Origin: Diphasiastrum complanatum
Lineage: Eukaryota; Streptophyta; Lycopodiopsida; Lycopodiales; Lycopodiaceae
Assembly: GCA_029204225.1 (NCBI GenBank)
Contig: CM055094.1
Coordinates: 16,395,595 to 16,459,594 of the forward strand
Direction of reading: 5' to 3'
Length of the DNA stretch: 64,000 bases
The position numbers and the translations under genes are program-made. This document shows, in pieces, positions 28,601 through 34,600 of the stretch (within the stretch, counting starts at the first letter, position 1; each line of letters opens with the position of its first letter). The notes beneath the pieces are model-generated. The model ran no database searches. It worked only from the letters and a program-made list of their open reading frames with translations, and had not been told where the DNA came from.

Positions 28601-31600
28601 ATAACAAGCAAGGAGAATCTGGTTTGCAGGCTTAGGAAAGCCTTGTATGGGCTCAAACAGGCGCCAAGGGCTTGGTATAGCCGAATTGACGAGTACTTTG
28701 CAAGGTAAGGGTTTGAGAAAAGTAAGTCTGATTGCAATCTTTATGTCTTCAAGGAAGGAGAAGACTCTGTGGTTGTTGTGCTCTATGTGGATGATCTACT
28801 CATCACGGAAAGCAATAAGAAGCTTATTGCTTGTGTTAAGAAAAATCTTTCTAGTGAGTTTGAGATGAAAGGTTTGGGTTTGCTACACATTGCCTAGGAG
28901 TTGAGGTTTGGAAAGGGAAGCTCACAGGCAAAGTATGCACAAAAATTATTGAAGAGGTTTAAAATGCAAGAAAGCAAACCAATTAGCACACCCATGGATG
29001 CAAGCAACAAGCCATCAAGAGATGATGGTCCAGCATTTGCAGATGAGACTCTCTATCGTCAATCGGTGGGCAGCCTGATTTACCTTACTACCACCAGGCC
29101 AGATATTGCTTATGCGGTTGGGATCGCAAGTCATTCATGAGTAAGCCTACCGAAGCACATTGGAAGGCAGCCAAGCGGATCCTACGATATGTGAGAGGGA
29201 CGATGACCGATGGGATTGGATACAGTGATGATGGAGACCTTCAGCTGGAAGGTTATTCAGATTCTAACTATTGCTCTATCATCTACCGAAGTTGAGTACA
29301 GGGCGACTACGAGGTCCGGCTGTGAAGCCATTTGGTTACGCCGTCTACTTGAGGACATGCAGATTGTCAAGTAAGACCTACATTGTTACATTGTGATAAC
29401 CAAAGTTGCATTCAGCTTGCGAGAAATCCAGTCTATCATGCACGGACGAAGCACATAGAGGTGGACCAGCATTTCATACGAGAGAAAGTGCACAGTGGGG
29501 AGATCGAGCTAGTTTATTGTGACACCAACGACCAGATAGCTGATATTTTTACTAAACCACTTAGTAAAGATAAATTTAAAAAGCTCAAAACTTTGTTGGG
29601 TGTTAGCTTGAATAAAATTGCCATTAAGGGGGGGTGTTGAAGAGTACTGCCTATTTTACCCCTTTGGCTAAGCACTAGTCAAGTTGTAAGTTGTACATAA
29701 CTCATGGGGCATGTTATTAAATAAATACATGAGACCCCCCTTTTGTAAGTTGAGTAAATTAGTGCAAGTGGCCCACTTGGCCAAGTAGCTCACTCCTATG
29801 GTTGACACTTAGACCACCTATGCATGTAAATGAGGTGCTTGCCTCACAAGGGATTTGGAGGACCCACGCCCTCCTCTCTCTCTCTAGCAATTCATTTCTT
29901 CTTTTAACTTTTGGTGTTGTGAGGTGCTTATGCAATTCTCCTTGTATGTGATGTTTTCCATAGCTATGTTTCTCAAGCTTTCATAGTTGATCTAGTATTG
30001 AAGTTAAGATACTCCATAGCTGAGTCTTGCAAATCATCAAGTGAGATAGACATTCCAGTACATCGGCCGAAGCTCCAGCGTCATCCTCGCTCCTCCAGGC
30101 CAAGGCTCTTCACCGGAGGCCAACACCTGCTTCTCACCATATCACGCAATTTTTTGTATCCACTTAGCTAGTTAATTAGCTTATATTTGTTTTCTCTTTC
30201 CATCTGTGTAGCTGGTGGTTAAGCTACTAATATTGTACCCTCAATAGAGCTGGAGGTTAAGCTTTGTTTTTCTTTCTGTTTTCTTTATCTAGTTTAGCTC
30301 ATAGGAATAAGTCCTACATAGACAATGCTCCTTTCTGATGTACTTTTTTATTTGTCTTGTGTGCCCACGGGCACTTGATAGACATTAATATAATTCTAAT
30401 TCTAATTTTCTCTCTCTCTCTCTTGATGTTTATATACGCTCCCATGGTTTTCACATACTTGACATGTACTCCTTTTGGTCTTATATGCCTTTTGGCATGG
30501 AAAAGACATTAATGAAGCTTTCTCTCTCTCTCTCTCTCTCTCTCTCTCTCTCTCTCTCTCTCAGCAACCTGCTGCCCCTCCTAGCACTCCTGTCACAGAT
30601 CCCTACCCTCTCTCTCCTCAACCTAATGCATTTGCTGCTCTAACAGTCGAAACACCTGTCCCAACTCCAAACGAGCTATCTCTGCAGCAGCGGATCGAAA
30701 TCCTGGAAGTTTCGTATCAAGGCTTCAAAATTGTCTTTTCAAAGATACACACACGCTTCAATGTTATAGATGAGACTTACACATGCATGGAGAAAAGCTC
30801 GATAACTACGGCCCTCAAATCCAAGAGTGGATTCAAGATGACGCCCAAGAATCGGAAACCAGCCAGTAGGAAACTCATCTCATCTTCAAGTTTATATGCA
30901 GCGATTGCGAGAGGAGCTGACCTTCTTGGTGACAGGGTGGTTCTTAATGGTGATCATTCTACTCTTGTTTCTTCCATTGTTGATAAAGTTAACCGTTTTC
31001 AAGATGTTTTCGATGACGTGAATACTTGTAAGGACCGGTTGAACATTATGGAGACACGTCTCACCAAAGACATTGACATTGCGTCTATTCAGAAGCTTCA
31101 TGATGAGCTTCAGGAAGGGCTCACAAACACGAAGAAATCTTGGGCTGACATTGCTAGGGGAACCACTAACTCTAAACAGGTAGTGGTGAAAGCTATGGAG
31201 GAACAAGAAAAACGAGCATCAAAGACCCTAAACGCAAGGTTACGAGGGGTAAAGTTCGAAGGAGAGGAAAATGTTTTACTGAAACAAGTTAATGATTACA
31301 TTTCATCTACATTCTCTATTCCCGCAGATCCTGTGGTTGCGGTGTGGCGTGGGAAATTCCAGCCTTCTCACATCTTCCTCCGTTTTAAAGACGAAGATTT
31401 TAGATGGACAGTTATTCGCCGACGAGGCTGCCTTAGAGGCACCAATCAATACCTAGAAGAAGATCTTACCCCTCTTCAGTGGGAAGAGCGGAAAAAACTT
31501 ATGTCAGAAGCTAGAGTCAAAGGTCAAAAAGTTTTACTTCGCGATGGTCGTCCAATTTTTGTTGACATTGTTATTAGCACAGTGTCGCCTCTGCGTGAGT

Positions 31601-34600
31601 GCATTTTGGCGCTATTGATTGAGTTTTGAGATTGAATTAGTGAGAGCTTCGAAATGGCCACCTGCGTGTGTGCCCACATTACTCTTGGAAACCTCTTCCT
31701 AGTTTAGTTTGGTTTTTTAGTTTTGTTGTTTGACGGCATTGCTCCGTCTTGGTTTCACTTTATCTGATGTACTTGTCTCGTCTTATAGGCCTCTAGGCGT
31801 GGAAAAGACATTAATAAAGCTTTCTCTCTCTCTCTCACTCTCTCTCTCTCTCTCTCTCTCTCTCTCTCTCTCTCTCTCTCTCTCTCTCTCTCTCTCTCTC
31901 TCTCTCGGTCCACTCAAGCCTATGTGGTAGAGCCTGGTTGGTTTGCGGGCTCTTTATTGTTTTTGCAACCCCCTCCCCTTCCCTCGAAAAAATAAAGAGG
32001 CCCCATCCCCGAGCCCCACAAAAAAGTTTTTTTTTTTTGGGGGGGGGGGGAGTGTGGGTGGGAGGAAGGGGAGGATTTAGCCTCCCCACACATTCTTGTC
32101 TCCCCCCATTTTGTTGGGGGGAGGGAGGTGGGCCTGGCACAACCCCCTTTACATTTTTCACTCTCTCAGCAACATGGAGGGGCACGCGCAATGCGTCGTC
32201 TCGCAAAAAAAATTGAAAAGAAAAAGAATGTTGTGCCACAGACCACGGGGAGGGGGAAGATGGCTAAGTAGATCATCAATCGCCACTCTGAGCATCATCC
32301 ACACGTCTCGACCACAAGCCGCCACCCAAATTGTCAGCCGCCCGTCAATGACGGGCTAACCCACTATGTACTAAAAAAATGAATATAAATTTGTTGTTGC
32401 ATTATGTTTTTCAATTCAATTGGTGTACATACGAGAAGTTTTTGTGATGACGACGCTGCCTGAAAACGTCCTTCGTGCTAGAAGGAAAGCCATTAGGGCA
32501 CGCACACGCACGCACGCGTGCGCGCGCCATCCACCATCGGCAGGCACACTTTACTAGTATATATATATATATATATATATATATAAAGTAGTGGGCCAAT
32601 GACCAGGTACATGAGTCTGATAGATGGACAATGGTGGAGTACAGGAGTCTAAAGTGCCCACACATCCATTTTGGCCTCCTATTGCTCCCTGCACAACCTC
32701 GAGAAGCTTGAAGAAAAGTGTGCCCAAATTTTGGATTCCCCAATATATCTGAAAAAAATTCCAACTTTTTTTTAGATAGTAATTACATTACTATGAATCC
32801 GAAAACCACCAAGTGCTAGTCACCACCAAAAACCATCCGCTCAAGTTGCACCCCGCCATAGGACCGGTAGATAGAATGGCACGCTAAGAGTCCTCCCTCC
32901 CAATCTATACTAACAAGGTAGGAGTCTCCATGGCAACAAGTACACAGCCTTGATTACAAGAAGTGGTACACATGCGATCCACTAATCACTGGTCAAGTCA
33001 ACAGGCCCTAGTCCAATGTCCAATTTCAAGTAAGGGTGGGACCCAAGGGATTGGGTCCCTAGCATTCCCTCTCCCTTAAAAAAAAAATTCAAAATTTAGC
33101 TTGAGATTGCCAATGAGCTCCAAAAATTTTCTATCTTCTCACTATGGAGAGAGGGAATACATACCAAATTCGACTTCCTTCTTGAAGTTAGGTGGATTTC
33201 CAGCATGTAATAAGGAAGTTGACTCACTCTCCTTGACCTAAGTCTATTTCCTAGAGTTATGCTTGGTAGGTAGCTAGTTGGTTAAATTTTCACCTTAGAC
33301 TTAGGTGTAGGTCCTATAAAGTAGGGATGACCACCAAATAGACATGACCAACTCTCTTGACTTGACCTAACCTACATTAGGATGGGTTTCCCATGCGGCA
33401 TCATGGCCTCACATGTGCGGGACCCACTTGTGTACACAATTTACACTATTCTACATGGTTTTTGATCAAGCTAGATTTGAGGAAGAAAACCTGGGAATCT
33501 TTGTCTTAGGTCGTGTTCCTTTCCCCAAGTGTCCTCATCATCGAAACTTCCTTATCAACAAACCAAGTACTCAGTCATTTTCTTGAACCAAACCATCCTT
33601 CCTGTTAGGAATTAATGTTTATTTGATACCCCTTAATGATAGTTTGGCCATGCTTGTGTGCTATTTTTAGGGGCCATTCTATTTATAGTAAATTCATTTT
33701 TTAAGGCTTATGCATGTAGGTGGGTGAGATTAGGATCTATTTAGTACTTAGAAGTTCATTTTTGGTCTTTACCAAATATAGGTAGTATTATTAGCAATTA
33801 GCTTTTGCTATTTTGCTATTTGCTTTAGGCTCTTAGCTTTTCTCATTCATTAGAGAAACTATTTAAGTAGGCTGGCGCCCCACCACAATCATTCCATTAT
33901 GCTAGAGCAATTGCTCAATTCTCCTATGATCTGAATTCTCTCTATCCTTGGTTTTATCTGAGTGCTAGTAGTAGTAGTGTCTTCATCTACAATTTGGATC
34001 ACAAATTCTGACACGGTATCAGAGCAGGCTCTTTGGTGAGAGAGAGAGAGTTTGTATTTGTAGGTGTGCACTCAGATTGGAGGAGCTGTTGCGCTGGACT
34101 ACTATTGGAAGTAGTTCGCTGGAATCAAGAAGATTTTAGACTAGTGAATCTCTGGCTGCAGCTGCGTGTTGGATCGTTGACTGCATATTGGATCACTGTG
34201 CTGAAATCAAAGAGTTTGTTTCAGACCTGTTTGCTGCTGGTGGAGCTGCAGATCTGATCGCTGGTGGTGTTGCAGATCTGATCGCTGGTGGTGCTGCAGT
34301 TCTGATCGCAGGTGGAGCTGCAGATCTTATCTGGTTGAATCACTGTACCTACAACCTGCTACCTGTTGGATTGCTGGCAGAATCAGAAGTTTTTTGCATA
34401 TCAATCGCCGGTTGCAGGGATTGTTTTCTGATTTCAGGATTGTTGAAGAACTGCTGTTTTGGATTAAAGATCGCTGTCAGATCACTGCTGGACAGATCGT
34501 TACTGAGACAGGTTACTACCAGACAGGTTGCTGCACGGGTCGCTGCATGACAGATAGCTACTGAGGCAGGTCGCTAAAAGATTAAATTCAGATCTGTTTG

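Follow-up and report, generated by a model that had tools for sequence, protein, structure and literature searches.

How does a row of retrotransposons come to stand head to tail with a run of the same dinucleotide at every joint? The question is raised by a stretch of 64,000 nucleotides from Diphasiastrum complanatum (Lycopodiaceae; assembly GCA_029204225.1, contig CM055094.1, positions 16,395,595 to 16,459,594; hereafter the window), in which units of long interspersed nuclear elements (LINEs) form a stack whose every piece lies on the plus strand. The stack opens with the 3' end of an element that we call LINE B (30041-30408), which carries an (ATTCTA)-type tail and terminates at about 30408 with ...GACATTAATATAATTCTAATTCTAATTT. 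It continues through (TC)7 (30409-30423), a 97-bp 5'-truncated LINE 3' end (30424-30520), (TC)21 (30521-30562), a non-autonomous unit with only the first open reading frame, ORF1 (30563-31822), and (TC)42 with a single interruption (31823-31906), and at 31907 it runs into a minisatellite beginning GGTCCACTCAAGCC. The ORF1-only unit is 5'-truncated within ORF1, which stays open for 354 codons (30565-31626), and has its own 3' untranslated region (UTR) together with the shared terminal hairpin and tail. The initial annotation had given this order of plus-oriented units joined by (TC)n, and it was exact to the base. Because the same stack is present on a second contig (L009, C24:490419-500199) with other TC lengths (39/15/46 there and 41/15/42 in the window), it is not an accident of a single contig. 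The smaller contig duplicates the window region over G000:C24:483439-500795, where G000 is the assembly, again with differing TC lengths, and is perhaps the other haplotype.

We consider it very probable that the stack grew as target-specific LINEs inserted, one after another, into a single (TC)n tract. This reading is carried by a census of 5' junctions in the window's own 1.74-Gb assembly, in which a junction was called TC-positive when a sense TC tract of at least 10 bp stood at the 5' break. The first set was collected with an 81-bp query from the LINE 3' end. The best 40 of 1,410 first-look candidates were scored, and removal of five duplicates from pairs that were 99.2-99.9% identical (L009, which duplicates the window, L015, L016, L025 and L026) left 35 independent copies. 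Nine of these were kept unclassed: in L020, L022 and L023 a TC tract lies close to the 5' break, but about 130-270 bp of unrecognised sequence intervene, L058, L063 and L064 are interrupted, apparently by a long terminal repeat (LTR) element, and L021, L051 and L056 reach past the sequence examined. TC was found at 15 of the 26 classifiable junctions, namely in the 97-bp unit of the window and in L010, L011, L013, L014, L017, L028, L050, L052, L053, L059, L061, L065, L066 and L067. The three interrupted copies are joined at differing places to a similar flanking repeat with a CATTTATT-like ending, which looks like the end of an LTR that has entered the LINE.

Two further sets were classed by eye. 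With the first 138 bases of the ORF1-only unit as query, 22 of 40 listed matches were examined, 18 of them independent, and TC preceded 17 of the 18. With the 5' end of the element that we call LINE A as query, 13 of 42 listed matches were examined, including LINE A of the window itself, and 12 of the 13 followed TC. The three sets together thus give TC at 44 of 57 classed 5' junctions and no TC at the remaining 13. By comparison, a sense TC tract of at least 10 bp ends within 3 bp upstream of 60 of the 128,000 positions of the window, counting both strands (about 0.05%), and of 36 of 90,000 positions in the distal flanks of the LINE loci. The corresponding binomial probabilities are 9e-44, 5e-56 and 1e-39 for sets 1, 2 and 3. 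An excess of TC at the 5' junctions of other copies had been proposed in the initial annotation as the test of targeting, and the excess is present in all three sets. The outcome named there as contrary, a majority of copies with non-TC 5' flanks, was not seen, yet 11 of the 26 junctions of set 1 are of that kind. The idea that new LINEs insert into the (TC)n tails of older ones is supported but needs widening: by our reading, an older LINE tail is the site of 14 of the 44 TC junctions (6/15, 5/17 and 3/12 by set), and the other 30 lie in non-LINE DNA, so that the target is any sense (TC)n. At some target sites the TC is followed on its far side by (AT)n, (AC)n or (GC)n, so that the microsatellite is a compound one.

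TC at a 5' junction might instead belong to the element, if the full-length RNA began in the upstream TC tract or the 5' UTR itself began with TC, and in sets 2 and 3 nearly every 5' end of full length does directly follow TC. The truncated copies, however, behave in the same way. The TC-positive copies of set 1 are truncated at points from -42 to several kilobases upstream of the anchor: at -42 in L028, -97 in L061, -187 in L066, -268 in L017, -441 in L010, -530 in L065, -965 in L011, -1072 in L013, -1352 in L053 and -1460 in L067. Because so many different truncation points directly follow TC, the tract is not element sequence; it is also contained in an empty site (L080, see below). We therefore rejected TC as an element 5' UTR, and the wider version of this explanation is barely credible.

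Most of the classed copies thus lie inside (TC)n, with TC on the sense strand of the element, both where the 5' end is complete and at many truncation points. The orientation is strict, since (GA)n stands at the break in none of the 57 junctions (scored by script for 22 of set 1 and by eye for the rest). The 3' side was scored with a query from the 3' UTR of the ORF1-only family that ends before the TC; 20 of 40 listed matches were taken, of which 16 are independent. The 3' end is followed by (TC)5 or more in 19 of the 20 matches and in 15 of the 16 independent copies, and at least two CTT units stand ahead of the TC in 12 of the 16. LINE A likewise ends in (TTTC)n and then (TC)n, and LINE B in an ATTCTA-type repeat and then (TC)7. 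The position of (CTT)n before (TC)n suggests that in the ORF1-only family (CTT)n is the tail and (TC)n the target, and much of the 3' TC probably belongs to the target, not to the tail. Template slippage at the tail had been regarded at the outset as an explanation of the 3' side only. That limit stands, since truncated copies carry TC on the 5' side too; as the sole source of the TC, slippage was rejected on two grounds, the truncated copies and the (CTT)n that mostly stands ahead of the (TC)n in the ORF1-only family. The same data bear on a looser preference, in which the LINEs would enter any TC-rich or accessible DNA and TC would be a by-product of a chromatin or promoter preference. The 11 of 26 copies in set 1 without 5' TC are what such a preference would leave. 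Against this stand the position of the junctions at the tract itself, their restriction to one strand and the 3' TC of 15 of 16 independent copies recovered with a TC-free query, and we regard a loose preference as very unlikely.

If the LINEs enter existing tracts, sites without the insertion should hold the tract alone. Joined-flank queries were made for seven insertions and gave one clean empty site: L080 is a paralogue of the L067 site in which both flanks align around a single 19-nt CT tract, where in L067 two TC tracts enclose a LINE of about 1.5 kb. Comparison of L067 with L080 revealed no duplicated flank apart from TC. Flank repeats of three other insertions were dropped as clean empty sites, that of L011 because its TC tract lies about 50 bp further on, and those of L061 and L017 because the 3' flank of the insertion is missing from the paralogues; the other insertions queried gave no empty site.

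The window holds comparable sites within its own minisatellite. The 5' flank of LINE B (CTTTCGAGCCCCCCC, then CT) and the 3' flank of the stack (GGTCCACTCAAGCC) resemble two halves of a single minisatellite motif, and three uninserted units of this motif in the window carry, in the corresponding position, CT runs that vary in length: a native TC run, short and imperfect, ahead of AGGTCCACTCAGG (17033-17045), (CT)5 followed by AGGTCCACTCAAGCC (22347-22356) and a 51-nt CT tract followed by GGTCCGCTCAAGCC (22548-22598), all on the plus strand. A target tract was thus already there both in the one clean empty site and in the minisatellite units that hold no LINE. In the simplest history, LINE B inserted into the CT run of a minisatellite unit, and the later units entered the TC at the end of LINE B. 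It could still be argued that the endonuclease needs only a short TCTC-like motif and that later slippage lengthened the tracts on both sides. The tracts do change length between the two copies of the stack, and the CT run of an empty minisatellite unit may comprise no more than (CT)5. The empty site L080, however, already has 19 nt of CT, the 51-nt tract belongs to a unit free of any LINE, and TC of at least 10 bp is found at 44 of 57 5' junctions, so that this explanation is unlikely.

The joints themselves were compared by aligning 19 5' junctions to longer relatives. Microhomology of 2-3 nt with the end of the TC tract was found at eight of them (L011, L017, L035, L065, L067, L047, L059 and the ORF1-only unit of the window), which is modest evidence that fits joining of the cDNA to the other half of the tract. 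These joints also bear on the alternative that recombination or template switching between TC tracts, and not separate insertions, placed the units head to tail. TC tracts are dispersed and able to recombine, and internal deletions occur in L018, L021 and L050. On the other hand, 30 of the 44 TC junctions have non-LINE flanks and none of the 57 is in GA orientation, the short microhomology seen at 8 of 19 truncation points is in keeping with target-primed insertion, and both flanks of L067 match the empty site. We judge this origin of the stack to be highly improbable, and return to successive insertion into (TC)n. A microsatellite-specific LINE is recognised by the same repeat at both junctions in one orientation and by an empty site made of the repeat; here the repeat was found at 44 of 57 5' junctions and 15 of 16 3' junctions, and an empty site made of it was found once (L067/L080), in addition to the minisatellite units of the window.

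Several observations weigh against this reading. The largest group is the 11 non-TC copies of set 1 (L012, L018, L019, L024, L027, L049, L054, L055, L057, L060 and L062), to which sets 2 and 3 add one each (L037 and L113), and a looser 5' side is possible for such copies. No clear flank duplication was found in the 11 copies of set 1, the longest shared word being 2-5 nt where shuffles gave means of 3.3-4.7. They consequently do not look like ordinary insertions elsewhere, and we infer that they are deletions, rearrangements or interrupted copies. The ranking of set 1 rested on similarity to a query that itself contains a few TC units, and the background was estimated from the window and the LINE-locus flanks. 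Among the copies counted as positive, the tract of L014 is imperfect for about 30 nt before the LINE, about 6 nt separate tract and recognised LINE in L028, a (GC)n run lies between them in L034 of set 2, and the tract of L050 is only 10 nt long. On the 3' side of L104, TC is almost absent. The paralogues of the L061 and L017 flanks (L087-L090) have no TC at the matching place, although their 3' flank differs, and in the target repeat of L011 native TC lies about 50 bp downstream of the L011 junction. Finally, 10 of the 19 aligned joints have microhomology of 0-1 nt, L014 gave no relative, and the microhomology of L047, L059 and the ORF1-only unit of the window holds against some relatives only.

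The other LINEs of the window conform to the same pattern, all on the plus strand. LINE A starts at 12325 directly after (CT)30 (12264-12324). Its first part (12325-13361) comprises a 5' UTR, ORF1 and a 3' UTR of the ORF1-only type ending GGAAAAGACGTTAATAAAGC; its second part (13362-16442) holds the remains of an endonuclease and a reverse transcriptase in broken frames and the common LINE 3' end, and is followed by (TTTC)n and (TC)43 (16443-16556) and then by the minisatellite GTTCTACTCAGG. LINE B starts at about 22756, directly after a (CT)20 within a minisatellite unit (22715-22755). Its 5' part (22756-25219) contains ORF1 (about 22758-23798) and endonuclease remains, with an approximate 3' boundary at a copia-like LTR retrotransposon that splits the element (25220-30040, plus strand, boundaries approximate and set by eye). 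Of the LINE starts that can be placed in the window, only the internal joint at about 13361 within LINE A does not follow a TC tract. A second LTR element, in minus orientation (17079-22062), sits inside the minisatellite array and has near-identical ends at about 17079-17440 and 21702-22062, as judged by eye. The plant telomere repeat TTTAGGG also occurs in the window, as a short run in interstitial position (53696-53721).

What kind of element would have such a target? The copies have a common 3' end and variable 5' truncation, as expected of LINEs. ORF2 of L022 matches RVT_1 (E=2.1e-31), and its endonuclease match is weak in this decayed copy (20.8 bits against a cut-off of 27.4). Exo_endo_phos scores above the cut-off, N-terminal to the reverse transcriptase, in the relatives P0001, P0003 and P0022, which as far as is known do not belong to this genome, and on the domain of these relatives the elements are best read as LINEs with an apurinic/apyrimidinic endonuclease (APE)-type domain. 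At least 120 relatives were found, among them those of the fern Adiantum nelumboides, which are 40-57% identical over 37-65% of the query. In comparison with the PDB, R2 ranked above human L1 for both L022 (84.6 and 61.3 bits) and P0001 (89.1 and 67.0 bits), and PDB similarity together with NCBIfam comparison gave no clade assignment. A Q..[ILMV]..[FY][FY] motif (for example QTQITSFF or QTQLTDFF), which we take to be a PCNA-interacting, PIP-box-like motif, lies near the C-terminus of ORF2 in L022 and in 11 of 16 relatives filtered from the 120 (P0002, P0003, P0006-P0010, P0012, P0013, P0015 and P0016), where shuffles lead one to expect 0.3.

The ORF1-only elements are a real family that lacks endonuclease and reverse transcriptase and in which ORF1 and the 3' end recur together. 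When 21 of the 40 listed ORF1 matches were set against 11 of the 40 listed 3' UTR matches, nine of the 21 paired at 1243-1297 bp, the window and its C24 duplicate included, and one further pair stood 594 bp apart. The family is represented twice in the window, by the unit of the stack and by the first part of LINE A. A single 5' UTR pattern matched at one place only. Another repeat family, L081-L086, also runs into TC, which is long in L082-L086 and short in L081, and the 3' flanks beyond it differ in most copies; it may be a second retroelement that uses TC sites.

These features suggest how the stack could have grown. An APE-type endonuclease would nick the (GA)n strand of a (TC)n tract, and the freed (GA)n 3' end could pair with the pyrimidine 3' end of the RNA, be it (UUC)n, (UUUC)n or (UC)n. 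Reverse transcription would then start at the paired end, as in target-primed reverse transcription, and the cDNA would be attached to the remaining half of that tract, sometimes over 2-3 nt of TC microhomology, which would leave TC on both sides. The ORF1-only family, sharing the hairpin and tail, presumably uses the enzymes of the autonomous LINE. The TC left at each 3' end would offer a landing pad on which a further copy could insert in the same orientation, producing head-to-tail stacks. A more ambitious proposal would have a land-plant LINE lineage and its ORF1-only parasites dedicated to (TC)n, with tail/(GA)n pairing, pads and arrays of their own making and coupling to replication through the PCNA motif; as a whole we hold it to be quite possible rather than probable. 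If true, it would offer a plant system for studying target choice in target-primed reverse transcription, including the sharing of a target by an ORF1-only partner, and would account for LINE arrays that are nested and run in one direction, and perhaps for part of the long TC tracts of such a genome. The matter has practical weight, since plant markers are widely based on TC/GA microsatellites.

LINEs with a strict target are, to our knowledge, known mainly from animals, and plant LINEs are usually described as dispersed and without a fixed target. The initial annotation had known of no plant counterpart, and no plant LINE with a (TC)n target was found among the top-ranked results of the open-licence literature, subscription papers and Repbase lying outside the search. 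A close likeness is to Kibi and Koshi of fish, reportedly described by Kojima and Fujiwara in 2004 as (TC)n- and (TTC)n-specific LINEs. They too reside in a pyrimidine microsatellite, and Kibi is reported to target (TC)n as well; unlike them, the present LINEs are found in a plant, have an ORF1-only partner and carry (CTT)n, (TTTC)n or (ATTCTA)n tails. That partner recalls HAL1, the mammalian 'half-L1', an ORF1-only non-autonomous LINE derivative that shares the 3' end of the autonomous LINE. The present family differs in belonging to a plant, in having a 3' UTR of its own of which only the terminal part is shared, and in using the same microsatellite target.

Simple-repeat targets are also described for the (TG)n-specific Togen and for microsatellite-specific members of the HERO clade, all placed with clades that have restriction-like endonucleases (Kojima and Jurka 2015, PMC4640811), whereas the relatives of the present elements have an APE-type domain. 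Plant L1-clade LINEs resemble them in 5' truncation and, in one lineage, in a conserved structured 3' end, and the part of the source available describes no such microsatellite target (Ohshima 2013, PMC3747384); the reverse transcriptase of the present elements, moreover, scores higher with R2 than with human L1. Microsatellites have been called 'landing pads' of transposable elements in plants (Kejnovsky et al. 2013, as cited in PMC12477314), and the present LINEs are likewise plant elements associated with microsatellites. That association is a general one of various elements, whereas here a single LINE lineage uses a target within the tract and on one strand.

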